Assembly (NCBI GenBank): GCA_003280995.1
Contig: QCDG01000005.1
Coordinates: 1-64,000 of the forward strand
Direction of reading: 5' to 3'
DNA from: Prochlorococcus sp. AG-355-A09
Lineage (GTDB): Bacteria; Cyanobacteriota; Cyanobacteriia; PCC-6307; Cyanobiaceae
Length of the DNA stretch: 64,000 bases
Part shown: positions 1 through 47,256 of the stretch, in pieces
Layout: each line of letters opens with the position of its first letter
Numbering within the stretch: position 1 is the stretch's first letter
Program-made: the position numbers and the translations under genes
The notes under the pieces: generated by a model
Told to the model about the DNA's origin: nothing
Database searches by the model: none
What the model saw: the letters and a program-made list of their open reading frames with translations, nothing else

Positions 1-501
1 GAAATACTCGAAACTGTAAGGAAATCAACTAATCTCCCTCTTCTTTGCAAAGATTTTATTATTTCTGCTTATCAGATTTATAAAGCAAGGGTATCTGGTG
101 CTGATGCAATATTATTAATCGCTGCGATTTTAAGTGATGATGATTTAATTTATTTAAAGAAAATAGCTGATAATTTAAAGATGAGTGTTCTTGTTGAAGT
201 CCATAACTCTAATGAATTAGAAAGGATTCTAAAGTTAAAATCTTTTAATTTGATTGGAATAAATAACAGGGACTTAAAGACTTTTAAAACGGATTTAAAA
301 ACATCAATAGAATTGATGCATACATATGCAGATATATTTTTAAAACAAAATATTATTCCCATAAGTGAATCGGGAATTAATTGTGCCGAAGATTTAGAAT
401 CGCTTAGATCTATTGGAATCATGGGAGTATTAATTGGTGAAACTTTTATGAGAGAAACTGATATTGAACAATCCTTCAAGAAATTATTTAACTCAATATA
501 A
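1..501 (+). CDS. trpC: Indole-3-glycerol phosphate synthase, C-terminal part
   Basis: The gene enters from the left edge, and 166 C-terminal residues are visible in frame 1. The ORF track starts it at 181, but the frame is open from base 1 and already reads as TrpC. Family motifs appear in the expected order: CKDFI (catalytic Lys region), [27 protein letters not shown] and LIGETFM. The enzyme closes the indole ring from carboxyphenylamino-deoxyribulose phosphate in tryptophan synthesis. The (beta/alpha)8 barrel's N-terminal half lies outside the window. The C-terminus is intact and ends in TAA. Known from the family: single-domain cytosolic enzyme. The identification is firm. Confidence 0.95.
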
Positions 502-556
502 TATTGACTTCAAATCGTGCTATAAAATTGAATAAACAGAGTTGTACTGAATATAT

Positions 557-1228
557 ATGCAGGCTGTAATTTTAACAGGTATAGTGGCAGGATTTGTGCA
601 TGTAGTTAGTGGCGCTGATCATCTAATTGCAATGGCACCTGCAGCGATTAATAATCCTCAAAAAGCTCTTAAAAATAGTTTCTCATGGGGTTTGGGACAT
701 TCTTCAGGAGTCCTCTTGTTAGCTTTTCTAGCGATTTTTATTAAGGATATTACGCCATTAAGCAAATTTTCTAGTATCGCCGAATTCCTAGTTGGAATTT
801 CACTTCTAATTGTTGGAGTATTTGCTATAAAAAATTCTTTTCAATTAAGTATTCACTCGCATTCCCATAAGCATGAGAATGGAATTGACCATCGTCACTT
901 TCACTTTCATGTTAAGGAACAAAAAAATAATAATAAGCACTCTCATGCTTTAACTGGTTTAGGCTTGCTTCACGGTATAGCTGGAGGTTCACATTTTCTT
1001 GCAGTTCTTCCTGCTTTAGCACTACCTCTAACAAGCGCTTGCTTATATTTGATTTCATATTTGATTGGTTCACTCATAAGTATGAATCTTTTTACTTGTT
1101 TAATATCTTTTACCACCTTTAAAGCAAGTAAAAAATTTATTAAAAGATTAATAGCTGCAGCAGGAGGGCTTTCCTTTTCTTTGGGATTATTTTGGATTCA
1201 AAGAAGTGCTTCTGTTTTTTTGAATTAA
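557..1228 (+). CDS. His-rich NicO/HupE-like nickel (or cobalt) transporter
   Basis: A 223-residue integral membrane protein with about six hydrophobic segments. The first segment carries HVVSGADH, resembling the metal-binding His/Asp motif of Ni/Co transporters. A second His motif lies near LGLLHGIAGGSH. The central loop (about residues 98-130) is extremely His-rich (HSHSHKH, HRHFHFH), as in NicO/RcnA-type and NiCoT-type proteins. The gene converges on sodX, overlapping its 3' end by 42 bases, and sodN follows. This makes nickel supply for Ni-superoxide dismutase the obvious role, but that is inferred from neighbourhood. Direction of transport (uptake or export) cannot be told from sequence. 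Start ATG at 557. Confidence 0.75.
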   Translation: MQAVILTGIVAGFVHVVSGADHLIAMAPAAINNPQKALKNSFSWGLGHSSGVLLLAFLAIFIKDITPLSKFSSIAEFLVGISLLIVGVFAIKNSFQLSIHSHSHKHENGIDHRHFHFHVKEQKNNNKHSHALTGLGLLHGIAGGSHFLAVLPALALPLTSACLYLISYLIGSLISMNLFTCLISFTTFKASKKFIKRLIAAAGGLSFSLGLFWIQRSASVFLN

Positions 1229-1579
1229 AAAATTTTTTAATTTAGGAATAATTAATTTAGAGGTGACAATCCCAATTATTTTTTCGTTATTGATTAATCC
1301 AAATTTATTACTATCTTCGCTAAATTCAATATTGTCTCCAATAACCTCAATGTTATTTTGATTTACTGAATTTATCCTTTTTATTAGATTTTTATTTTTA
1401 AATGGATGATTAAAAATAACTATTTGTCGATTTTTAAGTATTGATTTATTCCTTTTATATTTTTTAAAAAATACAATATCACCTTCTTTTAGGTAAGGAA
1501 ACATCGATTCACCACTAATAATCGCGGTTTTTCTTAAACCTAAAAAAAATAAAATAAAATCAAAAAAACTTTTGAAAAT
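1187..1579 (-). CDS. sodX: Nickel-SOD maturation signal peptidase-like protease (non-AUG start)
   Basis: An S26 (signal peptidase I-like) protease next to sodN, the standard partner that trims the Ni-SOD propeptide. The ORF track begins at the ATG at 1504, but the frame is open upstream to the sodN stop. The extension reads a hydrophobic anchor (IFKSFFDFILFFLGL), then KTAIISGESMFPYL, which contains the S26 catalytic serine motif SGESM. The track's start would remove this serine, so the real start must lie upstream. No ATG, GTG or TTG exists between the sodN stop and SGESM. The best candidate is ATT at 1577-1579, giving about 130 residues. The catalytic Lys is probably in LIKRI, followed by VIGDN. 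It may be co-translated with sodN, ten bases upstream. Identity is fairly sure; start codon is not. Confidence 0.8.
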   Translation of the reverse strand: MFKSFFDFILFFLGLRKTAIISGESMFPYLKEGDIVFFKKYKRNKSILKNRQIVIFNHPFKNKNLIKRINSVNQNNIEVIGDNIEFSEDSNKFGLINNEKIIGIVTSKLIIPKLKNFLIQKNRSTSLNPK

Positions 1580-1588
1580 AACTCTGAG

Positions 1589-2062
1589 TTAACTAGCTTT
1601 TACAAAAGCGTCTGATCTTCCTTTTGAAGCCCAGAAAATATTATGAATTTTTTCTACATAACTCATTAGTTCTTCAGATTGGGCTAAGTCAATATTAACT
1701 TTGCATGCACTGCATAATTTGGCCGCCTTCCAAATGGTTTCATGTAAGTCTGGATAAGTTTCTAAGTGAACTGGTTTAAAGTAATCTGTCCACAAAATTA
1801 GAATCTCTTTCTTTGTTTCTTTTGCTTGCTCTTCTTTAACTGCAACATATCTAGAAAATGTATTACTGTATGCAGCCCACTCTGCTGAATTAGTGCTAGA
1901 AGGAGCTTCTAATGCAATAAGTTTTTTTGTCATTGATAGAACTGCTTCTGCTGCAACTCTCGTAGATGCTGGGTCGTAAACACCACAAGGACCATCGCAG
2001 TGAGCGTGGACTGTAATTGGGGATTTTTTATCTAGAAAAGAATTGATGAATTTACTTAACAT
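1589..2062 (-). CDS. sodN: Nickel-dependent superoxide dismutase
   Basis: A 157-residue Ni-SOD precursor. Residues 1-20 (MLSKFINSF...ITVHA) are the leader. They are followed directly by the nickel-hook motif HCDGPCGVY, whose His1, Cys2 and Cys6 of the mature protein bind Ni. The rest is the expected four-helix-bundle sequence. The enzyme dismutates superoxide made by photosynthetic electron flow, and using nickel spares iron. Cleavage before HCDGPCG is expected from the downstream sodX product. The gene lies between the FKBP gene (upstream, same strand) and sodX (downstream, same strand). It is the marine picocyanobacterial form, and the hook motif makes the identification secure. Confidence 0.97.
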   Translation of the reverse strand: MLSKFINSFLDKKSPITVHAHCDGPCGVYDPASTRVAAEAVLSMTKKLIALEAPSSTNSAEWAAYSNTFSRYVAVKEEQAKETKKEILILWTDYFKPVHLETYPDLHETIWKAAKLCSACKVNIDLAQSEELMSYVEKIHNIFWASKGRSDAFVKAS

Positions 2063-2140
2063 TTCAAATATTTGGTGTTGTATATATATTACTTGGAGAT
2101 TAACTAAATTGAAAAGTCTTAGATATTTTTCTTACTTAAT

Positions 2141-2719
2141 TTAATTGACTTTTAATAATTCAACTTCGAAAATTAAAGTCGCATTAGCAGGTATTACATT
2201 TCCAGCTCCTCTTGATCCGTATCCAAGTTCTGGAGGTATTGTTAATTTTCTTTTGCCTCCAACTTTCATGCCTGCTACACCTTCGTCCCAACCTTTTATT
2301 ACTCGTCCGGCACCTAAGGGAAAGCTGAATGGAGCTCTTCCGATACTGGTATCAAATTGTGTCCCGTCCTCTAGAGTTCCTGTGTAATTTACAGTAACTG
2401 TTTGCCCAGCACTAGCTTCATCTCCTTCCCCGTTTACGATATCTGCAATAATTAGACCACTTTCTGTAGTCCTTGAATTGTTGTCTGATGGTGTTTCTTC
2501 TGCCATAGCGAAAAGTAAAGGATTTGGATCTGATGGGTCTAGTTCAAATAAATTATTATTTGAGACATTTGATGATTTTGCAACAGATGTAGGTGTTCTT
2601 TGAACTGACTGAGTTTCTGATTCAGCAGCACTAACAACTTGAGGTGAATTAAATTGACTGAAAAGAGTTAATGAAACACAAAAAACAAAAACTGCAAAAC
2701 TAATAAAGACTTCTTTCAC
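2141..2719 (-). CDS. FKBP-type peptidyl-prolyl cis-trans isomerase, exported
   Basis: A 192-residue protein in three parts. The N-terminal hydrophobic segment (about 5-30, [16 protein letters not shown]) looks like a signal peptide or membrane anchor. A low-complexity polar linker covers about 31-85. A complete FKBP domain runs from about residue 88 to the end, with [45 protein letters not shown] and IFEVELL. It should catalyse prolyl isomerisation of proteins in the periplasm or thylakoid lumen. sodN lies downstream on the same strand with a 78-base gap. Function within the cell cannot be narrowed further from sequence. Confidence 0.92.
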
Positions 2720-2805
2720 TTAAATTTTGAAAGTTACTAAACCTTAGTCTACAGAATGAAGGTACAATAAATGGGTGATTATAAATTTAATTTCGTAATT
2801 TTAGA

Positions 2806-4293
2806 TTGTTAATCCCAACTCAAATTAAAAGTCTAAGACAATATTTTTACCCTTGTTTAGGAGGGGTTTTAGGAGGAATTTCAGTTTCAACTCATTTTTG
2901 GCTGATTTTTATGCCGATATCTTTATTTATTTTATGGAAGGGAAGTGAAAGAAGAATAGCAAATTTTTGTTGGGGTTTTTTCTTTATCTTGATAAGTCAT
3001 TCTTGGCTCTATGATCTTCATCCATTGACATGGCTTGGGTTTTCATGGCTTGCAAGTTTAATAATTGCCATTTTAATATTATTACTTTGCGCTTTTCTGG
3101 GTGGGATATTAGTTTATTTATGGGGATTGTTAGTTGAAATTATTCTCTGGAAAGAGGATGTTTTCAAAATGAAAATATTATCTTTAACAGTAAAAGTATT
3201 TTTTTTATCCTTGACTTGGGGTATTGGTGAACTGATACTTTCTCAAACACCTTTTTTTTGGATAGGTTTAGGAGAGAGTATTATCCCAGGTGATATTTAT
3301 CTTGCTGGTTTAGCGAGATGGATTGGTGCAAGTGGTTTATGCGTATTACAAATATTAATTGGATTTTGGATTTTTTATATTCAAGGTGGATGGGAAAGAA
3401 AACTTCACTTTAAAAAAATATTTATTTTCGGACTTTTTATTATTTTTTTCTTACATCTTTTGGGGGGGGTATCAACCCCAATAAAAAGAGATTATGAATA
3501 TCCTGTGGCTATTTGGCAAACAAATATACCAACAAGAGAAAAATTAAAAATAAATGATGAATTTATTGAAGAAAAGCTATCTATCGCTCAAAAATATGCT
3601 TTATCAAACAAAGCGAAACTTCTTGTTGCTCCTGAAGGAACTCTATCCAATAATTTTAATTTTTCTAAAGGCATTAAGGTTAATACCTTGTCAGGAGGTT
3701 TCAGAAATTCAAATAATGAGTTAAGAAGTTCTTTACTCGGATTTCAAATTGGAGATAAATCTTTTAGCTCATTTATAGATAAAAACAGACTTGTTCCAAT
3801 AGGTGAAAAAATACCTAGATTTCTAGATAGTTTTTCAAGAGGATTATCAGCAGTAGGAGGAATTCAACCAGGCTCTGATTCAAGATTTTTTGATCCTAAA
3901 TTTACACAACCTCTAGCAGTGGCTATTTGTTATGAAATTAGTGATGGACTAGAAATAAGAAAAGCTGTTAATAGCGGTGCAAAACTAATAATAACTGCAG
4001 CAAATTTAGATCCCTATCCAGCTAAGCTTTATAATCAATTCCTATCTCTGGCTAGATTAAGAAGTATTGAAAATAAGAAAAATAATTTACTAGTATCAAA
4101 TACTGGCCCTACAGGCTTAGTTCAAGATGATGGAAAAATAATTAAACTTTTAGATTATGATGTCGAGCAAAATGAAATAGTGTACCCTAATTTTTCATCC
4201 GAAAAGACTTTCTATACAAAATTTGGAGATAAACCTATTTTGTTTTTGTTTATATTATTTATGGGATTAAATTTCTTTTGGAAAATTAACTAA
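2806..4293 (+). CDS. lnt: Apolipoprotein N-acyltransferase
   Basis: A 495-residue membrane enzyme that adds the third acyl chain to the N-terminal Cys of lipoproteins. Several hydrophobic segments fill the first 240 residues, followed by a nitrilase-like (carbon-nitrogen hydrolase) domain. The catalytic triad is recognisable as Glu277 in VAPEGT, Lys326 just before NRLVPIGE, and Cys375 in AICYEISDG. Spacing is close to that of E. coli Lnt. Translation appears to start at TTG (2806), because the first ATG would remove the first membrane segment. The 3' end overlaps mnmA on the opposite strand by 8 bases. The N-terminal membrane region is poorly conserved, but the triad makes the call firm. Confidence 0.92.
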
Positions 4294-5443
4294 TTATTCC
4301 ACCACCTAATAAAATTTCTCCTTTATAAAAAACTGCAGCTTGTCCGGGCGTTACCGAACTTTGACTTTCTTCAAAAATTAATTTAAATGTTGTAGTTGTA
4401 TTATCTAAATTTTTCAAAGGTATTAATGTACCTTTTACTGGATTACTTCTATATCTGATTTGTGCTTCTACTTCTATCTCTTGCTCAGGTTCTTCGATTG
4501 AAACCCAGTTAAGCTTATTAATTATTACTTCTTTATTAAATAGATCACTTTTATCTGCTACATAAACTATATTTTTTACCCTGTCTAAACTTTTTACATA
4601 TAGTGGTTTCGGCCAGGCAATGCCCAACCCTTTTCTCTGACCTACCGTAAAGTGCTGAATTCCATTGTGCGTTCCAAGGACTTTCCCATTTACATGCACA
4701 ATTTCTCCTTCTTTGGGTTCAATGTGTTTGTCGATAAATATCTGCATTGATCCATAATGCTCAACTAAACATAAATCTTGACTTTCTGGTTTTTGAGCAG
4801 TTCTAAGGCCTAATCTCAGAGCTTCCCTTCTTGTTTCTTCTTTTTTCATTTCACCAAGAGGAAATTCTAATCTGCTTAGTACATCTTGAGAAAGAGAATA
4901 AAGAAAATAACTTTGGTCTTTGTTTTCGTCAGCACCTCTAAGAAGAAGGAATTCTTTAAATACAAGGCTCTTGCAATCAAGTGTTTCAGCATAAGATGAT
5001 TTATTTATCCTTGCGTAATGTCCGGTCGCAATATGAGTAAAGTCTTTTTTGCTTATTGCGTAATTGAGCATTTCTTCAAACTTCACATTCTTGTTGCACA
5101 TCGAACATGGAAGTGGAGTGAATCCTTGCTCATAGCTTTCAGTAGTTTTTTTAATTACCTCTCTTTCGAAAATTTCTCTTGAGTCTATTATTTTATGATT
5201 TATTCCTAAATCTTCACAGAGGCCAGCAGCATCTACTAATCCTTCAGAACAACATGAGCCTTGTCCTTTCATTAGCCAAAGAGTTAGTCCCTCAACATTC
5301 CAGCCTCTTTCTACAAGAAGGGCAGCTGAAAGGGAACTATCTACGCCACCAGAAAGACCTACAATAATATTTTTCTTCTTTTTAGTTTTATCATTAGAAG
5401 AAAAAAAGTTCTCTAATTTTTTATCCTTTTGTGCCTTTAACAT
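4286..5443 (-). CDS. mnmA: tRNA-specific 2-thiouridylase MnmA
   Basis: A 385-residue enzyme that thiolates U34 of tRNA-Lys, Glu and Gln. The PP-loop GLSGGVDSS adenylates the uracil O2. The first catalytic cysteine region is [10 protein letters not shown] and the second is [25 protein letters not shown] and a C-terminal beta-barrel ending TPGQAAVFY are also present. A short insert with adjacent cysteines ([15 protein letters not shown]) is typical of cyanobacterial MnmA as far as I recall. Start ATG at 5443 gives a slightly extended Lys-rich N-terminus. The gene is convergent with lnt and divergent from nnrDE (46-base gap, so the two promoters must share that space). Confidence 0.95.
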
Positions 5444-7195: not shown

Positions 7196-8137
7196 ATGGT
7201 CTCATCATTACCAATTCAATCAGAACCACCTAAAAGGAGGAGTAATGATCCAATAAGTTGGTATTTGCAAAATATTGGTAGAGTCCCCTTATTAACACCT
7301 GCCGAAGAGATTGAACTGGGTAATCAAGTCCAGAAGATGATGATTCTTACAGAAGATGGACAATTAAATGAAAAGGTTAATGAATTTACAACTCAGCAAA
7401 AAAGAACTATAAAAATTGGTCGAAGAGCTAAAGAAAGAATGATGAAAGCTAATTTAAGATTAGTAGTCAGTGTGGCAAAAAAATATCAAGGTAAAGGACT
7501 GGAATTACTTGATTTAGTTCAAGAAGGTTCTCTTGGGTTGGAGAGGGCTGTTGAAAAATTTGATCCGACAAGAGGATATAAGTTTTCTACTTATGCATTT
7601 TGGTGGATTAGGCAGAGTATGACAAGAGCTATTGCATGTCAATCAAGAACAATCCGTTTACCTGTTCACTTAAGTGAAAGGTTGGCTTCTATTAGAAAAG
7701 TTAGTAGAGATTTGGCTCATAAGCTTGGTGCTATGCCAAGTAGAATTGAAATAGCAGAAGCAATGGAAATTGATGTAGAAGAATTGGATTCTGTTTTGAG
7801 ACAAGCCTTATCGACAAGTAGTTTAGATGCTCCAGTAAATGGTGATGATGGCAGAAGCTTTTTAGGTGATTTGATTGCAGATAGTAATAATGAAGAACCT
7901 CTTGATCAAGTTGAACAAAAAATGCATCAAGAGCAGCTTGGTAAGTGGTTAAGTCATTTAAGCGAGCAAGAACAACATGTTCTCAAACTAAGGTTTGGAC
8001 TTGATGCAAATGAGAGACATACGCTTGCAGAAATTGGAAGATTATTAGAAGTTTCTAGGGAAAGAGTAAGACAAGTTGAACTTAAGGCACTAAGAAAATT
8101 AAGGAATTTAACCAGAAAATTACCTAGCGGTATTTAA
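7196..8137 (+). CDS. Group 2 RNA polymerase sigma-70 factor
   Basis: A 313-residue sigma-70 family protein. Region 1.2 reads DPISWYLQNIGRVPLLTPAEE. Regions 2.1-2.4 read NLRLVVSVAKKYQGKGLELLDL through FSTYAFWWIRQSMTRAI. Region 3 follows, and region 4.2 is ERHTLAEIGRLLEVSRERVRQ with its helix-turn-helix. It lacks the long N-terminal region 1.1 of the principal sigma factor, so it is a group 2 (non-essential, RpoD-like) sigma. Such factors reprogramme transcription during light, nutrient or diel changes in cyanobacteria. Which Sig paralogue it is cannot be settled here. It ends 1 base short of convergent pdhA, and the 140-base upstream gap should hold its promoter. Confidence 0.93.
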   Translation: MVSSLPIQSEPPKRRSNDPISWYLQNIGRVPLLTPAEEIELGNQVQKMMILTEDGQLNEKVNEFTTQQKRTIKIGRRAKERMMKANLRLVVSVAKKYQGKGLELLDLVQEGSLGLERAVEKFDPTRGYKFSTYAFWWIRQSMTRAIACQSRTIRLPVHLSERLASIRKVSRDLAHKLGAMPSRIEIAEAMEIDVEELDSVLRQALSTSSLDAPVNGDDGRSFLGDLIADSNNEEPLDQVEQKMHQEQLGKWLSHLSEQEQHVLKLRFGLDANERHTLAEIGRLLEVSRERVRQVELKALRKLRNLTRKLPSGI

Positions 8138-8138
8138 T

Positions 8139-9212
8139 CTAATCTTCTGCCCAAATATATTTGGTTAATTCTTCTGAAGGAGGTTCAGGAGCTTCAATTG
8201 CATTTTTAACTGACTCCGATATTTCAGCATCAATCCTCTTTTCAATAATTTTTAATTCTTCTTCCGTAGCGAATTTACCGTCTATAATTTCTTGGGCTAA
8301 TTTCTTAATAGGATCTCTTTTCCCCCAAAACTCCTTCTCTTTTTCAGACCTTAATTCATCTGGATCTGCAAGAGAATGGCCTCTATATCTATAAGTTAAA
8401 CATTCTAAAAGTGTGGGACCTTCTCCTGCCCTAGCTCGCTCAATTGCTCTTTGTGCTGCCCCTCTTACTGCTAATACATCCATTCCATCAACTTCCTCGC
8501 CGTGCATGCCAAAAGCAGACGCTTTTCTCCAGATTTCAGGATTACTAGTAGCTCTATCATGAGCCATACCAATAGCCCATTTATTATTTTCAACAACAAA
8601 AATTATTGGTAATTTCCATAACTGGGCCATATTTAAACATTCAAAAAACTGCCCATTATTGCAAGTCCCATCCCCAAAAAATGCTGCAGTTACCGCATCA
8701 CTATTACTATTTCCAGCAACTTCCTTTTTGTATTTACTTGAAAAGGCTGCCCCTAAGGCAACTGGAATTCCCTCTCCAATAAATGCATATCCTCCGAGTA
8801 GGTGATGCTCTCTTGAAAATAAGTGCATGGATCCACCTCGGCCTTTGCTACAACCAGTGGATTTACCAAAAAGTTCACTCATTACTTCAAATGAGGGAAC
8901 ACCCGCACTTAGTGCATGAACATGATCGCGATAGGTACTACAAAACCAATCATGTTTCTTTTTCATGGCGCCAATTACTCCCGTGCTTATAGCCTCTTGA
9001 CCGTTATATAAATGAACGAAACCAAACATTTTTCCCCTGTAATACATTTCTGCACACTTATCTTCAAACCTACGCCCAAGCGTCATGTCTTCATAAAGGA
9101 ATAATCCGGTTTCTCGATCTAATTCGGCTTTTTTTATGTCTTGAAGATTTGAGATTCTCTCTACGTGTGTTTCCAAGAAAAATACCTTAACGAAGTTTTG
9201 ATTTGTTAACAT
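8139..9212 (-). CDS. pdhA: Pyruvate dehydrogenase E1 component, alpha subunit
   Basis: A 357-residue thiamine-diphosphate enzyme subunit that, with PdhB, decarboxylates pyruvate and feeds acetyl-CoA synthesis. The ThDP/Mg motif begins [17 protein letters not shown] and ends with [11 protein letters not shown]. The substrate/phospho-loop [14 protein letters not shown] and the signature [10 protein letters not shown] are also seen. ATG at 9212 leaves about 25 residues before the conserved start ([18 protein letters not shown]). A slightly later start is possible but no better one is obvious. It stands alone, convergent with the sigma factor, and pdhB is not in the window. Confidence 0.95.
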
Positions 9213-33114: not shown

Positions 33115-33202
33115 GAAATTCTTTTTTGAACAAAACTAAAGAATTTAGAGTTTGTGTTTTTTTGAAAAATTTATTTGTAAAATAAATTATTAGCTATAAA
33201 AA

Positions 33203-34246
33203 ATGTTCAAAATTTATATTTTATTTTTATTCTCTCTGATCATTAATTTAAATATTTCTAACTTATTTGCTGAAAATAATAAAGTAAAAATAAACCCTAA
33301 TTCAATAAAAAAACTTGATTGGGAATATAGTGATTTAAATACTGAAGAAGAGTTAAATTGGCATGAAGTTGATACCGAGGAAATTTATAAAAATCAAATA
33401 AAAATTAAAAATATTGGTAAAAAAAGTAATAGATTTTCCGTCAGATCTATTGGTAAAGGGGTAACTGTTAATGGTTCTTATTATCCAGATATTTCCAATT
33501 ATGTCCCAAACGCATATGTGGAGGATCCTAATAAATTTTTTGGTTTGAGTTCAAGAGGTATTAGTAAAACGAGATTTTGTAATGGTAATAATTTCTCAAC
33601 AAGCTGTATGGATGGTATATTAGATTTGGATTTTAAGTTGTTTAATAATAATAACTTTAGTATTTATCCCAAAATAAATGTCCAAAGTTTGACTAACAGA
33701 GGAACTAATTTTGGAGATGGGGTTAGTATGGGTGTAAAAGTTGCCAAAGAACTTTCATCTAATTGGTCTTTCGCATTTGGTGGGGAAAATATTTTCCATT
33801 TTGATGAAACAATAGATCTAGGACATAATTTTTATTTTATTGCAAGTACATATATTCCTTTGAGTAAGAGAGAAAAATCAAATATCCTATTTCTTAATGC
33901 AGGAATAGGATCCGATTTTTATGGTTATAAAGGTAATGGATTTTTATTCAGAACACCATGCGGGAATAATACATTAACTGGGACCTCAGATGAACCAAAT
34001 TCTTGTAGCTGGGGTCCAATTGGTTCTATTGCTTACTCTCTAAATGATAGGTTTTCTATCATTAGTGAGTGGTTTGGTTATAGTTATGGAGCAGGATTTT
34101 CAATAAGACCTTTTAAGGAAAACTCCCTAAGTATCTCGCTTTTTGCTACTGATTTTATAAGGGGATTTCCCAAGTATGCTGAAGATTACTGTACTGTAGG
34201 AATGTGTGAAACAAGATTTTATGGTAGTATTGGCTTAAATTTTTAA
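33203..34246 (+). CDS. Probable outer-membrane beta-barrel protein
   Basis: A 347-residue precursor. Residues 1-23 are a signal peptide (ILFLFSLIINLNISNLFA, cleavage likely before ENN). The mature part has many alternating short strands with aromatic ends (NFSIYPKINVQSL, WSFAFGGENIFHF, FYFIASTYIPL, FSIISEWFGYSYGAGFSI) and finishes with a C-terminal Phe (YGSIGLNF), the mark of outer-membrane barrels. Four or more cysteines may form disulfides. No named family recognised. The next gene, 7 bases downstream, is also exported, so the two may function together. Confidence 0.7.
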   Translation: MFKIYILFLFSLIINLNISNLFAENNKVKINPNSIKKLDWEYSDLNTEEELNWHEVDTEEIYKNQIKIKNIGKKSNRFSVRSIGKGVTVNGSYYPDISNYVPNAYVEDPNKFFGLSSRGISKTRFCNGNNFSTSCMDGILDLDFKLFNNNNFSIYPKINVQSLTNRGTNFGDGVSMGVKVAKELSSNWSFAFGGENIFHFDETIDLGHNFYFIASTYIPLSKREKSNILFLNAGIGSDFYGYKGNGFLFRTPCGNNTLTGTSDEPNSCSWGPIGSIAYSLNDRFSIISEWFGYSYGAGFSIRPFKENSLSISLFATDFIRGFPKYAEDYCTVGMCETRFYGSIGLNF

Positions 34247-34253
34247 AATCAAA

Positions 34254-34889
34254 GTGAGACTAGTTAAGTTAAAAAAATTATTTTTATCAAGTTTATTTTT
34301 GTCAATACCTTTTAATTCCTCTGCAATCTTTGCTAACGAACTTTATAGGCAGGATCTTAAGCCAGTATTAATCGCTCAAACGACTGAAGATTATAGAGAG
34401 CATGAAGATGAAAGTGAAAATGAGGATGATATTCATTCAATAAATCATGATTGGAAAAATCATTATCATACAATTCGTTCTATAAGGTTAAAATCTAATG
34501 GCAATTTGAAAATTAGATTTTGTGAGAAAGTTGAGTTGTTAGAGGGACATGTTTATGCAGACGATGTCAAATATGATGTTAAAAACGCATATAAAATAAG
34601 AAAAAAAAGTATTGTATGGCGTCTTAATGAAAAAGGTACTTTTGAAAAGGGAAGTTCAGTTTTTATAAATACAAAAGATTTCCTTGGTAGACCAATTGAG
34701 AAAGAACCTAATCCAAATGAAATAAGATCACTTGAAAGAGGTTGTGGAATCCCTTTATTATATTTACCTCCAGGTGTTCAAGTTATAGCGGGTTCTAATG
34801 GTTTTGCAATCCTTGGATTAGTTTTGGCGATTGGAGCAGCAGCAGGAGGAGGAGGCTCAGGAGGATCTGGATCTTCATCAAGTAATTAA
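34254..34889 (+). CDS. Secreted protein with Gly/Ser-rich hydrophobic tail, unknown function
   Basis: A 211-residue precursor starting at GTG (34254). The signal peptide is LKKLFLSSLFLSIPFNSSAIFA, cut probably before NELYRQ. An acidic stretch follows (EHEDESENEDDIHS), then a domain with IRSIRLKSNGNLKIRFCEKVELLEGHVYADDVKYDV. The end is a hydrophobic segment (FAILGLVLAIGAAAGG) leading into a GGGGSGGSGSSSS tail. That tail could be a C-terminal anchor or sorting element. It is 7 bases after the barrel gene and likely forms one operon with it. Family not recognised. Confidence 0.65.
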   Translation: MRLVKLKKLFLSSLFLSIPFNSSAIFANELYRQDLKPVLIAQTTEDYREHEDESENEDDIHSINHDWKNHYHTIRSIRLKSNGNLKIRFCEKVELLEGHVYADDVKYDVKNAYKIRKKSIVWRLNEKGTFEKGSSVFINTKDFLGRPIEKEPNPNEIRSLERGCGIPLLYLPPGVQVIAGSNGFAILGLVLAIGAAAGGGGSGGSGSSSSN

Positions 34890-35062
34890 ATTATTTAATT
34901 ACATACTTACCTATTGTTTTTTAACAACAAATCATAATAAATATTTTCAATAGTTTTTGAGAAAAGGAATAATAAATTAGTGAATATATATATATTTCTG
35001 GGTTTTATTGTTCCCTAAAATATTGAAATTATTCACTAAAAGTAGATAACTTTTTAGACAGC

Positions 35063-35617
35063 TTATTCAAGCAATTTATTTTTGAAATTTGCCTCTCTGC
35101 GTGCGCCACTTATAAAGTTTTGCATAGGCTTAGTTAACTTTTTAAGGGGTTGTTTAGAAACTTTCAGTTTTTGAGAAGGTAGATCCATTTGTATTAAACA
35201 ATTAAACTCACAAGAGGGATCTGTCTCTTGGTAGCCGCTATCTTGATGAGGCATCCATGAAGTTTCTTTGTATGGCGTCTTAAAAGAAATTTTTGAATGA
35301 GTGACAAAATATTTTCTTTTTGTATCGCATAAAACTTCGTATGAAGATTTTATTTTTGGTGAATTTATTAATTTTCTTATTGGAGAATTTTTATCTTTTA
35401 AAACATTGATAATATGCCTTGGTTGTCCATCTTTATTTCTAAAGTGGAATATAGTTTTCTTTGCATTTTTGCTTTTTCTTGAAACCTCTGCACTATATTA
35501 ATTCAAACATGTTTTTATATTTTGAACATATTTTTCACTTGAAATACCTGATATGTGAACATAACCATTTTCTTGATAAAACTTTTTAATTCCATAAGAA
35601 TCTGAAGCATCAAACAT
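35063..35617 (-). pseudogene. Decayed phytanoyl-CoA dioxygenase-like gene (in-frame TAA)
   Basis: The track shows only the 63-residue 3' end (35063-35254). The same frame is open from an ATG at 35617, broken by a single TAA at codon 40 (35498-35500). Before it reads GIKKFYQENGYVHISGI, like the start of PhyH-family iron/2-oxoglutarate oxygenases. After it the frame continues for about 144 codons, including FRNKDGQPRH and WMPHQDSGY, whose HxD is the iron-binding pair. The distal His and the remaining half of the barrel are missing, since the frame ends soon after FNCLIQMDLP. Reading: a once-functional oxygenase gene, truncated and interrupted. The family assignment is tentative; the broken frame is direct. 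Confidence 0.6.
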
Positions 35618-36022
35618 AAATAAAAAGGTTATTATTATAAATAATAAGTTTAATTATACACTGCATATAAGTATAAAATTTAAAGTAAATTTTTCTAGAT
35701 TAAGTGCTTCTTATTAGAAGCTGACTCATACTATTCAAAGGCATCAAGAGATTGATACAAGATAATGCTCTAAACTTTCTTTGATTTATTTAAATTATTT
35801 TGATTTTTTAGCTCCGTCCAAATACTTTTCATTACATTATTAATTTTTAAGTATTTGTGGAATTGCTTTAGAAAGCTCTAGAAAGCATGCTACAACTTGT
35901 AAATCTCTAAGTGCATTTTAAGGTGCAAATTTTAATAATCAAACGCTATAAAGTACTATAAGAATTAGGGACGTTGCGAAAAAAATCTTTAGATTGATTG
36001 ATATGAATGACGTTTCTAGATT
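35618..36022. other. Intergenic region upstream of tRNA-Ala
   Basis: About 400 bases with no credible coding frame. It holds the presumed tRNA promoter (tataa-like ctataagaat around 35954) and a gctttagaaagc short dyad near 35870. I see no insertion sequence or integrase remnant. Confidence 0.5.
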
Positions 36023-36095
36023 GGGGCCATAGCTCAGCTGGTAGAGCACCTGCATGGCATGCAGGGGGCCAGCGGTTCGAGTCCGCTTGGCTCCA
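36023..36095 (+). tRNA. tRNA-Ala (anticodon GGC)
   Basis: A complete 73-base cloverleaf. The acceptor arm is ggggcca/tggctcc with one G-U pair and discriminator A. The D stem is gctc/gagc, the anticodon stem cctgc/gcagg with loop atggcat (anticodon GGC), and the T arm agcgg-ttcgagt-ccgct. The CCA is not encoded. A damaged second copy of its 3' part lies 1.2 kb downstream, and the surface-polysaccharide island extends from its 3' side, marking this gene as the probable integration site. Confidence 0.97.
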
Positions 36096-36175
36096 TCAGG
36101 ATTTTAGCTAGTTATACTAATTATTTTAGTTAATCTATGATAACAAAAGATAGCATAATAAATCCTAAAATATGC

Positions 36176-36216
36176 TTAATTATGCCCCCTCTGCGAGCAA
36201 ACCTGCGAGCTAAATT
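36176..36216. repeat. TGCGAGC repeat motif, copy 1
   Basis: ttaattatgc is followed by two TGCGAGC words with starts 12 bases apart (36192 and 36204), then taaatt. The same layout recurs at 37195-37232, on the other side of the methyltransferase-like gene, before the tRNA remnant. G/C-rich words in A/T-rich DNA suggest a recombinase or regulatory site. Confidence 0.6.
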
Positions 36217-36270
36217 ATAAAGTATATTAATTTGTATTTAACTTTTTTAATTATTTAAAATAGTAAAATT

Positions 36271-37134
36271 TTAAGAATTTTTTATTCTTGCAAAACAAAT
36301 CCAAGTATAACTTTTGCATTCATTTTTATAAAAATCATTAGAGGAATTTACCTCCTCATCAGATATCTCTTCAATTAGTGGATTTAAAGTAGGATAATTT
36401 TCCTCGTCCCAAGGATCGCCCCAACGAGTAGTAGGAGCTTTATATATTGGTGGAAATTCAAAATAAATATCTAGATTATTTTCTAGAAAAAATTTGTCTT
36501 GTTTATTAGGTTTTACTGCAATTTCTTGAAATTGTTCCATTTGCGATGGAAGCTTAGTAAATTTTTTATAAAAAGAATTAAATATTTTTTTTATATAATT
36601 TCTAAATTTTGAATTTTCTTGGAGAAATTCTGAACGAAATCCAGAACAACTAATTATTTTTTTTATGCTATAACAGTCGCCTTGAGTAATAGGATAATTA
36701 TCTTCAAAAATTATATTTTTAAATCCGAACCATTTGCATTGCTGCAAGCGATTATAAGCATTCTGATGATCATCAAATAAAACTAGTGAATCATTTGTTA
36801 TCCCAGACCAATCATATTGTGAGAAATCACAAGATTCATAAAAAATTCCTTCGCACGAAATTTCCCTAAATTTTTTCTGAGGATCGAAAGAAATTATTTT
36901 TGAATTTGGACAAGCCTCCTTTAGGAGCCATGCACTTTGTCCTTTATAAGTTCCACTATCAACTATAAGTTTTGGTTTAAGTGTTTTGGCTGTAACCCAC
37001 ACATAAAACATATGGGTAGATAACATACCTCCATTATTATTCTTAATGGGACGTTTTTCATATATAGTTCTGAACTCTTCTAGCAGATTTACTAAATTAA
37101 GTTCTTCAAACCATTTAGGAAACTTTATTTCCAA
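36271..37134 (-). CDS. Methyltransferase-like (Rossmann) protein between tRNA-Ala copies
   Basis: A 287-residue protein. The middle resembles a class I SAM-binding fold: KPKLIVDSGTYKGQSAWLL (motif I-like), IISFDPQKKF (acidic end of beta2), DSLVLFDDHQNAYNRL and NIIFEDNYPITQGDC. It is probably a sugar or surface-polymer modifying enzyme, but no family name can be assigned. It lies alone between tRNA-Ala and the tRNA remnant, transcribed toward the intact tRNA. An equal-length paralogue at 46393-47256 carries two nonsense codons. ATG at 37134 is the only good start. Confidence 0.65.
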   Translation of the reverse strand: MEIKFPKWFEELNLVNLLEEFRTIYEKRPIKNNNGGMLSTHMFYVWVTAKTLKPKLIVDSGTYKGQSAWLLKEACPNSKIISFDPQKKFREISCEGIFYESCDFSQYDWSGITNDSLVLFDDHQNAYNRLQQCKWFGFKNIIFEDNYPITQGDCYSIKKIISCSGFRSEFLQENSKFRNYIKKIFNSFYKKFTKLPSQMEQFQEIAVKPNKQDKFFLENNLDIYFEFPPIYKAPTTRWGDPWDEENYPTLNPLIEEISDEEVNSSNDFYKNECKSYTWICFARIKNS

Positions 37135-37194
37135 AATATAAATTTAAGATAAGTTTATTATCTCACGAAATTAGTTTTTTAGTTAAACCATTTT

Positions 37195-37232
37195 TAATTA
37201 TGCAGTGTGTGCGAGCAGCCCTGCGAGCAAAT
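37195..37232. repeat. TGCGAGC repeat motif, copy 2
   Basis: ttaattatgc, then two TGCGAGC words with starts 12 bases apart (37210 and 37222), then aaatt. It matches copy 1 in order and spacing and lies 22 bases before the tRNA remnant. Confidence 0.6.
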
Positions 37233-37253
37233 TGCCAGAAACACCTGCAAAAC

Positions 37254-37322
37254 CTAGTTATAGCTTAGTTGGTGATCTGCATGGCATGCAGGGGGGCAGC
37301 GGTTCGAGTCCGCTTGGCTCCA
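37254..37322 (+). pseudogene. Degenerate tRNA-Ala copy (possible attachment-site remnant)
   Basis: The 3' 47 bases, from the anticodon stem through the T arm to the acceptor, match tRNA-Ala(GGC) at 46 positions (one C to G in the variable loop). The 5' half is changed: the first acceptor strand no longer pairs, the D arm is mutated (tagcttagttggt), and four bases are lost before the anticodon stem. It cannot form a cloverleaf. A conserved 3' half with a decayed 5' half is the usual product of integration into a tRNA gene. Confidence 0.85.
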
Positions 37323-37592
37323 TATAATATTTCGATATTATTTTTGTAGAAAAATCTATTTAACCACATCTATTATTTTCTCCATTGTTAAACTTATTAC
37401 TTAAATGAAAATTATTTCCGCAGGCTTTATATTTAACAAGACTAAATTTATTAAAACGATAATATGCTCTATAGATATTTAAAAAAATAAATTAATTAGG
37501 ATAAAGTAGCAAATATTTTATTTTAATAAAAATAATTTAGGCTTTAATCTATTGAGGGTTAATTTATAATTTATAAGATAAAAATTCATTTA

Positions 37593-38627
37593 ATGATCAA
37601 ATTTAAGTTAAATATAATTAATGTTCCTTTGACAGATAATTTATATCAAAGAATAGGTCTTTTAATTAAATGGCTTTATATGCGCTTATTAAAAAAAAAT
37701 AAATATGTTACTGAAAGATATAGGCCTATTTTTGTAAATAAATTAAATGAAAGTTTGTTGGACAAAACATTTGATGTGGCGATATTAATGAGAGGGCAAA
37801 TTATTAAAAATGATGAATTTACTTTAAATACCTTAAAGATCTATAGAGCAAATTTCCCAAAAGCACCCATTTATCTTTCAACATGGGATTATTGCGTAGA
37901 TGATGATTTATGTTTATTTTCAAAAAAAAATAATATAAAGCTTATCATATCTGAATTTAACAAACCAACTAGTGGATATGGAGCTGACAATTTACAAATA
38001 ATTGGAAACGTTAACGGTCTTAATGCCATATGTGAAGATAAAGTTAAGTATTGCATATCTACAAGAACTGATCAAAGGTTCTATTCCAGTAATATTCTTA
38101 TATATCTAAAAAATTTAATTTCACATTATCAATATAAAAAATCAAATCCTAATGATAAGCAGCTAAATCGTTTAATAGCAATGAGCTTTGATACTTTTCT
38201 TTATAGATTGTACGGTCTTGGAGATATGTTTCTTTTTGGTTTAACAGAAGACGTTCTAAATTATTGGAATAGTGAAAAAGATACAAGAGTATTCACCAAA
38301 GAAGATTTAAGTAAAGTAATAACTTTAAGAGATTTATCAAACTTAAGAGTTGATGAGGTTTATTTTATGACTGAATTTCTTAAAAGAAATGGCCACAAAC
38401 TAGAATGGTCAATAGAAGATTATCTTGATGTTTTAAGAAAAAGATTTATTATTATTGATAGTAATTCTCTTGATTTCTTATGGCCAAAATATAGTTTTTT
38501 TGAAGAAAGGTATAAAGACTTTAGAGATATTAGATTTAAAGAAGTCAGCTATCTTGATTGGTTATTAATTAAAAATTATAAACTTAAATTTGATGATAAA
38601 ATCTTAGATTCTAAAAGGCATTCTTAA
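37593..38627 (+). CDS. WavE-like LPS core/surface glycan biosynthesis protein
   Basis: A 344-residue soluble protein. The stretch DVAILMRGQIIKNDEFTLNTL, followed by YRANFPKAPIYLSTWDY, fits the WavE family start (GPI..T..T...YR..FP...I.LSTW). CISTRTDQRFY matches its later RTD motif. WavE is a putative glycosyltransferase for Vibrio LPS core. The catalytic activity of this protein is inferred. First plus-strand gene after the tRNA remnant, with a 270-base leader of very A/T-rich sequence. The N-terminus is Lys-rich without a signal peptide. Confidence 0.65.
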   Translation: MIKFKLNIINVPLTDNLYQRIGLLIKWLYMRLLKKNKYVTERYRPIFVNKLNESLLDKTFDVAILMRGQIIKNDEFTLNTLKIYRANFPKAPIYLSTWDYCVDDDLCLFSKKNNIKLIISEFNKPTSGYGADNLQIIGNVNGLNAICEDKVKYCISTRTDQRFYSSNILIYLKNLISHYQYKKSNPNDKQLNRLIAMSFDTFLYRLYGLGDMFLFGLTEDVLNYWNSEKDTRVFTKEDLSKVITLRDLSNLRVDEVYFMTEFLKRNGHKLEWSIEDYLDVLRKRFIIIDSNSLDFLWPKYSFFEERYKDFRDIRFKEVSYLDWLLIKNYKLKFDDKILDSKRHS

Positions 38628-38727
38628 TAAATATCATTTTAATTTAACATGAATAATTTGATATGTATTAGCTAAAAATAATGATAAAACTCTATAATAT
38701 TTGAATTTAATATTAAAATATAATTTT

Positions 38728-46263: not shown

Positions 46264-46392
46264 TAAATGTAAATAATATATAATCAGGATATATTAGATA
46301 AATATTAATTAATAAGAAACCCTTTTTTTGAAATATATTTGTTCCTTTCTAAAAACTTAGCTTTTTGTTTAATTAAAAAATTAATTAGAATC

Positions 46393-47256
46393 TTAATGGT
46401 TTTTTATTCTTGCAAAACACATCCAGGTATAATATTTGCATTCATTTTTATAAAAATCACTTGAGTTATTTACTTCTTCTTCAGTTATTTCATCAATTAA
46501 TGGCTTTGGAGTGGGATAGTTGTCACTGGTCCAAGGGTCATCCCAAAGAGTATTTGGCGGTTTATAAATGGGTGGAAATTCAAAATAAATTTCTAAATTT
46601 TTTTCTAAAAAAAACTTGTCTTGTTTATTAGGCTTCACTGCAATTGTTTGAAATTGTTCCATTTGTGATGGAGATCTAGTAATTTTTTTATATAAATAAT
46701 TAAATAGTTTTTTAGAGTAATTTCTTAATTTAGAATCTTTTTGAATCAATTCTGAACGAAATCCAGAACAACTAATCACTTTTTTCAAGCTATAACAATC
46801 TCCTTTTGAAATAGGATAATTATCCTCAAAAATAATATTTTTAAATCCAAACCATTTGCATTGCTATAAACGGGTATAAGCATTCTGATAATCGTCAAAA
46901 AAAACTAAAGAATCATTTGTTATTTCTGACCAATCGTATTGTGAAAAATCACAAGATTCATATCTAACTCCTTCGCATGTAATTTGTCTATATTTTGCTA
47001 CTGGATCGAATGAAATTATTTCTGAGTTTGGGCAAGCTTCTTTCAAAAGTCATGCACTTTGTCCCTTATAAGTACCACTTTCAACTATCAGTTTTGGTTT
47101 AAGTGTCTTAGCTGTTATCCAAACATAAAACATATGAGTAGATAACATGCCACCCATATTATTCCTAATGGGACGTTTTAAATATACAGTCTTGAATTCC
47201 TCTAAAAGATCCAATAAATTAAGACTTTCAAACCAATCAGGGGGTTTAATTATCAA
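46393..47256 (-). pseudogene. Inactivated paralogue of the 36271-37134 methyltransferase-like gene
   Basis: The track shows three pieces (47050-47256, 46864-47046, 46393-46788) that are all in one frame. Joined, they match the 287-residue intact protein end to end, with the same total length of 864 bases. Two in-frame stops replace conserved codons: TGG to TGA at codon 69 (GTYKGQSA then stop) and CAG to TAG at codon 131 (before QCKWFGFKNIIF). Both are single transitions, and no frameshift is present. Residual similarity is very high (CDFSQYDWS, ISCSGFRSE). The promoter region differs from the intact copy. It is a recent pseudogene unless the stops are assembly errors. Confidence 0.85.

Follow-up and report, generated by a model that had tools for sequence, protein, structure and literature searches.

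A probable trans-mobilised, integrase-less cassette at tRNA-Ala(GGC) of Prochlorococcus sp. AG-355-A09

An intact tRNA-Ala(GGC) gene that is followed, 1.2 kb downstream, by a second copy of its own 3' half raises the question of what placed the DNA between the two. We studied this arrangement in a window of 64 kb at the start of contig C5 (108,955 bp), which belongs to a 1.5 Mb genome in 28 contigs (~92% complete). The original prediction read it as site-specific integration into a tRNA gene, possibly of a minimal cargo element mobilised in trans and similar to the tycheposons of Prochlorococcus, which were reportedly described by Hackl et al. in Cell in 2023. We compared 121 tRNA-Ala loci, i.e., the window's own and those of 120 other genomes (one genome per species; 1.93 Mb in total), all oriented by the tRNA. 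Searches for integrases and for relatives of the cargo gene covered 266 species.

The tRNA gene, its displaced 3' half and the cassette ends

ARAGORN and Rfam call a single tRNA at 36022-36097, i.e., Ala(GGC), and the sequence match of its 3' half with the downstream copy extends over 46 of 47 bases, such that gene and duplicate are both confirmed. ARAGORN calls no tRNA at the copy. Since the longer match around it reaches an E-value of ~3e-17 in a whole-genome search, the copy is not a chance similarity. Between tRNA and copy lies a cassette of 1,179 bp (36098-37276) with one gene, and the locus is composed as follows.

36022-36097 (+): intact tRNA-Ala(GGC), target gene and attL
36050-36063 (+): putative recombination core in the anticodon arm, CTGCATGGCATGCA, placed by half-copy breakpoints in relatives
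36098-36191 (+): conserved left-end spacer of 94 nt, with ~70-83% identity to the left ends of cassettes that are otherwise unrelated
36192-36210 (+): left arm-like motif R, TGCGAGCAAACCTGCGAGC, at the same position in 14 left ends
36271-37134 (-): cargo ORF of 287 aa with TTG start, weakly methyltransferase-like, sole enclosed ORF
37210-37228 (+): right arm-like motif R', TGCGAGCAGCCCTGCGAGC, at the same position in 17 right ends
37229-37276 (+): conserved right end of the element, with the putative element half of the core as its last 28 nt (37249-37276)
37277-37323 (+): displaced tRNA-Ala 3' half, attR, matching 36050-36096

The DNA directly before the copy had been taken for a decayed 5' half of the tRNA, which does not hold. 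Elements of three other species (L195, L209, L204) have exactly the same 28 nt from 37249 to 37276, and the 67 nt before the copy agree with other elements by 96% (AG-321-E21), 94% (MIT 9302) and 90% (G090), again with all of the last 28 nt identical. The last 26 nt, on the other hand, show an ungapped identity of ~31% to the 5' half of the host tRNA. Because this stretch is conserved across elements yet only ~31% like the host tRNA, it is best seen as the element's own attP DNA. That is, an attachment site should carry such a sequence as its element half once integration has taken place. A gapped alignment reveals a faint resemblance to the D-arm, and the DNA before the copy may once have been tRNA-derived; it now travels with the element. 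Concerning the crossover, 3'-half copies in relatives start mostly at tRNA position 27-33 and 5'-half copies end at tRNA position 40-42; the anticodon arm of tRNA-Ala is nearly palindromic (CCTGCATGGCATGCAGG).

Both ends of the cassette contain the tandem motif TGCGAGC-N5-TGCGAGC (at 36192 and 37210), which is found nowhere else in the window. Both instances are perfect and located ~95 nt (95-96) after the tRNA and 67 nt before the copy, respectively. A genus-wide pattern scan places the tandem motif beside tRNA-Ala in many other species. Allowing for at most one mismatch, we count 38 R motifs within the 1.93 Mb of the 121 loci, every one on the tRNA strand, and none in shuffled sequence. They are found 64-70 nt before a 3'-half core (17/38), 93-98 nt after the tRNA end (14/38), at slightly shifted left-end distances (3/38) or elsewhere (4/38), i.e., 34 of the 38 are at or near the two fixed positions. 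Scanning a wider contig collection for R yielded chance matches, with MIT 9302 and AG-321-E21 excepted. The arm-type sites of tyrosine integrases (lambda-type, Tn916-type) are paired repeats at fixed spacing on both sides of a core. The R repeats appear to be laid out in the same way; we hence call them arm-like.

A family of cassettes with common ends

Extra copies of the tRNA 3' half are present in 31 of the 121 loci, at varying distances and with varying cargo. Window-type ends occur in 24/121 loci and are common to otherwise unrelated cassettes in ~20 other species. Elements with both ends (n=13) span 160-2749 bp, while six have the right end only. Of the 84 loci whose downstream sequence extends over at least 10 kb, 57 show neither copy nor window-type ends. 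Since 31/121 loci have copies and 57/84 have neither copy nor ends, the same duplicate in all relatives, without any empty site, is ruled out. The comparison across tRNA-Ala loci that had been proposed as a check therefore strongly supports the integration reading, and we regard site-specific integration into tRNA-Ala as practically certain. An exact empty site for the window cassette was not among the loci, i.e., its right flank (37324-38700) matches no relative's tRNA-Ala locus.

Among the matches listed, all-against-all nucleotide similarity is found for the first 110-150 and the last 60-110 nt of the elements, and the left-end similarity between cassettes stops where the arm motif ends. 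Cargo similarity amounts, again among the matches listed, to a few short matches plus integrase remnants. According to Pfam, L192, L195, L207, L208, L268 and L221 carry an FkbM methyltransferase, and L231 has FkbM-type cargo beside a more degenerate end. Further cargo comprises other methyltransferases, a sulfotransferase, an arylsulfotransferase, a GT10 glycosyltransferase, an acyltransferase with SGNH domain, a GDSL protein and a nitroreductase-family protein. Judging from these domains, the family often seems to carry surface-modifying enzymes.

For the window cassette, the original prediction of one enclosed methyltransferase-like gene and no integrase is right with regard to the single ORF, which does not encode a recombinase. 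The methyltransferase label is weak: the protein has no match in Pfam, its best relevant NCBIfam hint is FkbM with E 0.068, and nothing both significant and relevant is found in PDB, Pfam and NCBIfam. Its AlphaFold model (pLDDT 33) provides no usable fold. Sensitive tblastn detects no integrase remnant inside the cassette, and no other genome of the 266 species holds a relative of the cargo gene at E <= 1e-30. A paralogue is located within the window itself.

46390-47253 (-): pseudogene paralogue of the cargo gene, with one TGA and one TAG, without element ends

The two proteins are 79% identical, with a dS of 0.74 and a dN/dS of 0.17. A dS of this size implies that they do not stem from a recent duplication, and the low dN/dS that the cargo family was under purifying selection. 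The DNA they have in common (36244-37170) is confined to the interval between the arm motifs and leaves out the ends, and the paralogue probably represents an independent acquisition.

Tandem arrays of elements are observed in L204, L208 and L209, and L204 carries fused end sequences. In L208, a cargo-less unit of 160 bp (4047-4206, oriented) has a single R motif that is left and right arm at once, as would be expected from recombination between direct arm repeats that removes the cargo. Other cargo-less units, each ~95 bp long and enclosed by two tRNA copies, are found in L206 (2687-2782), L227 (2624-2720) and L290 (2743-2839; all oriented). Two of these three show TTCGCAAT-type repeats, and the units may be another att family reduced to its bare site.

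Integrases and the 5' side of the tRNA

No element of the family has an intact integrase except L264, where it comes with the right end of a different att family. Integrase N-terminal remnants are present behind the left arm of L264, L274, L202 and L343. In L264, an 82-aa N-terminus begins 171 nt after the tRNA, directly behind the arm motif. The remnants thus show what the other elements lost and suggest autonomous, tycheposon-like ancestors. G094 has a truncated relative of 263 aa near the tRNA. Among intact homologues, the closest are those of G059 and G113, which are 51-53% identical over the N-terminus, sited elsewhere and preceded by TGAGTGACC-type repeats, unlike the arms of the window cassette. 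At tRNA-Ala, no intact integrase of the expected ancestry was detected in the 266 species. The genus-wide PF00589 profile search mostly returns phage-type integrases and the chromosomal 389-aa recombinase, and deep-branching tycheposon recombinases escape it. Pattern and homology searches of viral contigs and phage genomes returned neither the element's attP nor its integrase.

Two larger elements at the same tRNA, L193 (6.7 kb) and L201 (13 kb), encode an integrase of 429/430 aa and end with a tRNA 3' half. Their plan is tRNA, ~95 nt, two arm-like repeats with a period of 12-13 nt, and the integrase 136 nt from the tRNA. We take both to be tycheposons. As a side observation, L201 and L277 (elements of 8.6-13 kb at tRNA-Ala) contain genes that by reading resemble TonB-dependent iron uptake, i.e., a FecCD-like permease, an ABC ATPase, a receptor and ExbB/ExbD/TonB-like genes.

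The window's own genome yielded two recombinases, the chromosomal one of 389 aa and another located at tRNA-Thr, with TGCACTAA-type arms. To the right of the cassette, where further tRNA fragments or a tyrosine recombinase had been proposed as a check, neither was found up to position 103,955 of the 108,955 of C5. Elsewhere in the genome, L344 (G000:C8:48000-66000) contains a 449-aa tyrosine recombinase adjoining tRNA-Thr(GGT) (7231-8580). It also has, at 13-5179, a helicase/ATPase gene and three genes that by reading resemble DISARM drmA, drmB and a phospholipase-D protein. L344 is probably a defence-carrying tycheposon.

The 5' side of the tRNA is occupied as well. The distance between lexA and the tRNA is 65-66 nt in eight relatives, while 2.9 kb intervene in the window.

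33115-36021 (no strand assigned): 2.9-kb insertion between lexA and tRNA, absent in the eight relatives, probable remnant of a 5'-side element
35845-35889 (-): remnant of a divergent tyrosine integrase (5'-side element), i.e., its first codons
35911-35927 (+): arm-like repeat GTGCATTTTAAGGTGCA of the 5'-side element

L223/L228 match positions 35845-36020 at 90% identity and encode an intact integrase of 439 aa, which begins 135 nt from the tRNA and points away from it. The arm-like repeat GTGCATTTTAAGGTGCA is similar to the left arm of 3'-side elements that carry an integrase, when this arm is reverse-complemented. In five loci, an intact divergent integrase is found 135-136 nt upstream of the tRNA; L270 is similar. 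Copies of the tRNA 5' half mark the far ends in L348 (10292-10333; G143, 12.9 kb upstream) and L350 (8741-8780; G129, 6.4 kb upstream). In front of the copy in G129, the sequence agrees with the empty lexA-tRNA spacer of relatives. Given these flanking copies and the short lexA spacer in relatives, the upstream integrases belong to 5'-side elements. We also considered a stationary integrase, i.e., an integron-like platform, which is rejected by the far-end 5'-half copies in G143 and G129 and by lexA lying 65-66 nt away in eight relatives. Since the 5'-side insertions in G143 and G129 are closed by 5'-half copies ending at position 40-42, the same anticodon arm appears to accept elements on both sides. 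This indicates one tRNA that is open to invasion from its 5' and 3' sides, with the crossover in the near-palindromic anticodon arm. Elements upstream of tRNA-Ala were seen in L348, L350, L223, L228, L197, L206 and L264.

Candidate mechanism, alternatives and known systems

At the sequence level we observe att halves, arm motifs at fixed spacing, presence and absence among species, unrelated cargo, a missing integrase and integrase remnants in relatives. We consider it fairly probable that 36098-37276 is an integrated, integrase-less cassette that derives from a tRNA-targeting tyrosine-recombinase element and is mobilised in trans. A tyrosine recombinase would have joined a circular attP to the anticodon arm of tRNA-Ala(GGC). 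The order of this attP would be right arm motif, 67-nt left flank, tRNA 3'-half core, 96-nt right flank and left arm motif, and its joined form would read ...CTAGTTATAGCTTAGTTGGTGAT + tRNA 3' half + CAGGATTTTAGC... On integration, the 3' half of the element would have restored an intact tRNA and displaced the host's own to 37277-37323. The ancestor would have been an autonomous, tycheposon-like element, from which the integrase was lost and both ends were kept. A related recombinase acting in trans would move the cassette, or did so until recently, and the cargo, here one gene, would have been exchanged repeatedly within the family. The trans mobilisation that had been predicted fits the absent integrase, the conserved ends and the swapped cargo, from which mobility itself is deduced. 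Excision, the circle, the trans-acting enzyme and the route between cells are what we infer from these data; neither excision nor a circular form was seen for the window cassette.

The strongest alternative, though rather unlikely, is a decayed and immobile remnant, i.e., a CIME: a full tycheposon would have lost its integrase and most of its genes, such that its ends and one useful gene persist. Integrase remnants in some family members and the tandem accretion agree with such decay, and similar elements have been described, namely 15 Dehalococcoides ssrA islands without integration module (PMC3146451). However, arm motifs are perfect and ends conserved while the cargo differs in every element, and the left-end similarity repeatedly stops just past the arm motif, a pattern not favoured if elements decayed independently and at random. 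A second alternative, which we consider improbable, is that the ends are kept as sites of homologous exchange (or as regulatory RNA or terminator), such that cargo is swapped between R motifs and not by an integrase. The R motifs are indeed direct repeats, and both the 160-bp unit of L208 with one R for both ends and the fused ends of L204 are in line with it. This leaves unexplained why a tRNA 3' half is displaced, why the crossover is in the anticodon arm and why integrase-bearing elements have the same plan; homologous exchange may still be an additional route of cargo exchange. Finally, plain local duplication or gene conversion of the tRNA without a mobile element, for which the 1.2 kb between the copies would speak, can be practically dismissed given the conserved foreign sequence inside both ends, the arm motifs at fixed distance and the same arrangement with different cargo in ~20 species next to other loci without it.

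Returning to trans mobilisation of an integrase-less cassette, a wider reading is possible that we put forward tentatively and with more doubt than confidence. Prochlorococcus might maintain an open pool of cassettes that hold one gene each, often for an enzyme that modifies the cell surface, and that have in common no more than an attP of two arm repeats plus the tRNA-Ala 3' half. Tycheposon-type recombinases would insert, stack and exchange them in trans at tRNA-Ala(GGC), i.e., an integron-like sampling of genes at the edge of the surface-polysaccharide island. In any case, we obtain a base-resolved candidate mechanism by which the most abundant photosynthetic organism could take up genes one by one into its hypervariable surface island, and changes in this island may alter phage susceptibility. 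Now that the attP, the core and the spacing of the arms are defined, one can search directly for the trans-acting recombinase and for the excised circle.

Integron gene cassettes are small, mostly hold one gene, bear a recombination site without a recombinase and form arrays at one site. The elements described here resemble them in all these respects. In contrast, the window cassette has neither an attC nor a resident integron integrase, its target is a tRNA and its ends are tRNA halves with arm-like repeats.

Tycheposons, as reported in PMC10872708, span 4-200 kb, use seven tRNA genes and encode a tyrosine recombinase. With the window cassette they share the genus, a tRNA target with a partial tRNA at the far end, and the role of genomic-island cargo. 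Integrase-bearing tycheposon-like elements at the same tRNA-Ala also share its end plan. Compared to this size and recombinase (PMC10872708), and to the hallmark genes of tycheposons, the window cassette has 1,179 bp, one gene and no recombinase. The predicted likeness to tycheposons thus stands for the working principle and the probable ancestry and fails for the recombinase and the published size range. The remnants in L264, L274, L202 and L343 and the end geometry of L193 and L201 are what a non-autonomous tycheposon relative would show.

CIMEs (cis-mobilizable elements; defined in PMC5704250) keep attL and attR and have lost their integration and transfer genes, as found for the window cassette, and undergo tandem accretion, as found in its family. 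No conjugation or mobilisation genes were identified in the family; relatives have integrase remnants and the cargo differs throughout. A CIME, however, results from the decay of one ICE or IME, while here many cassettes share their ends with different cargo, which suggests repeated reuse. In the ssrA islands of Dehalococcoides, elements likewise inserted one after another downstream of an RNA gene, whose 3' end recurs as direct repeats, and there are islands without integrase (PMC3146451). They differ by a serine recombinase, by rdhA and other genes as cargo and by their location at most 100 kb downstream of ssrA (PMC3146451). Overall, CIMEs (PMC5704250) and the integrase-less ssrA islands of Dehalococcoides (PMC3146451) come closest among the situations that have been described.
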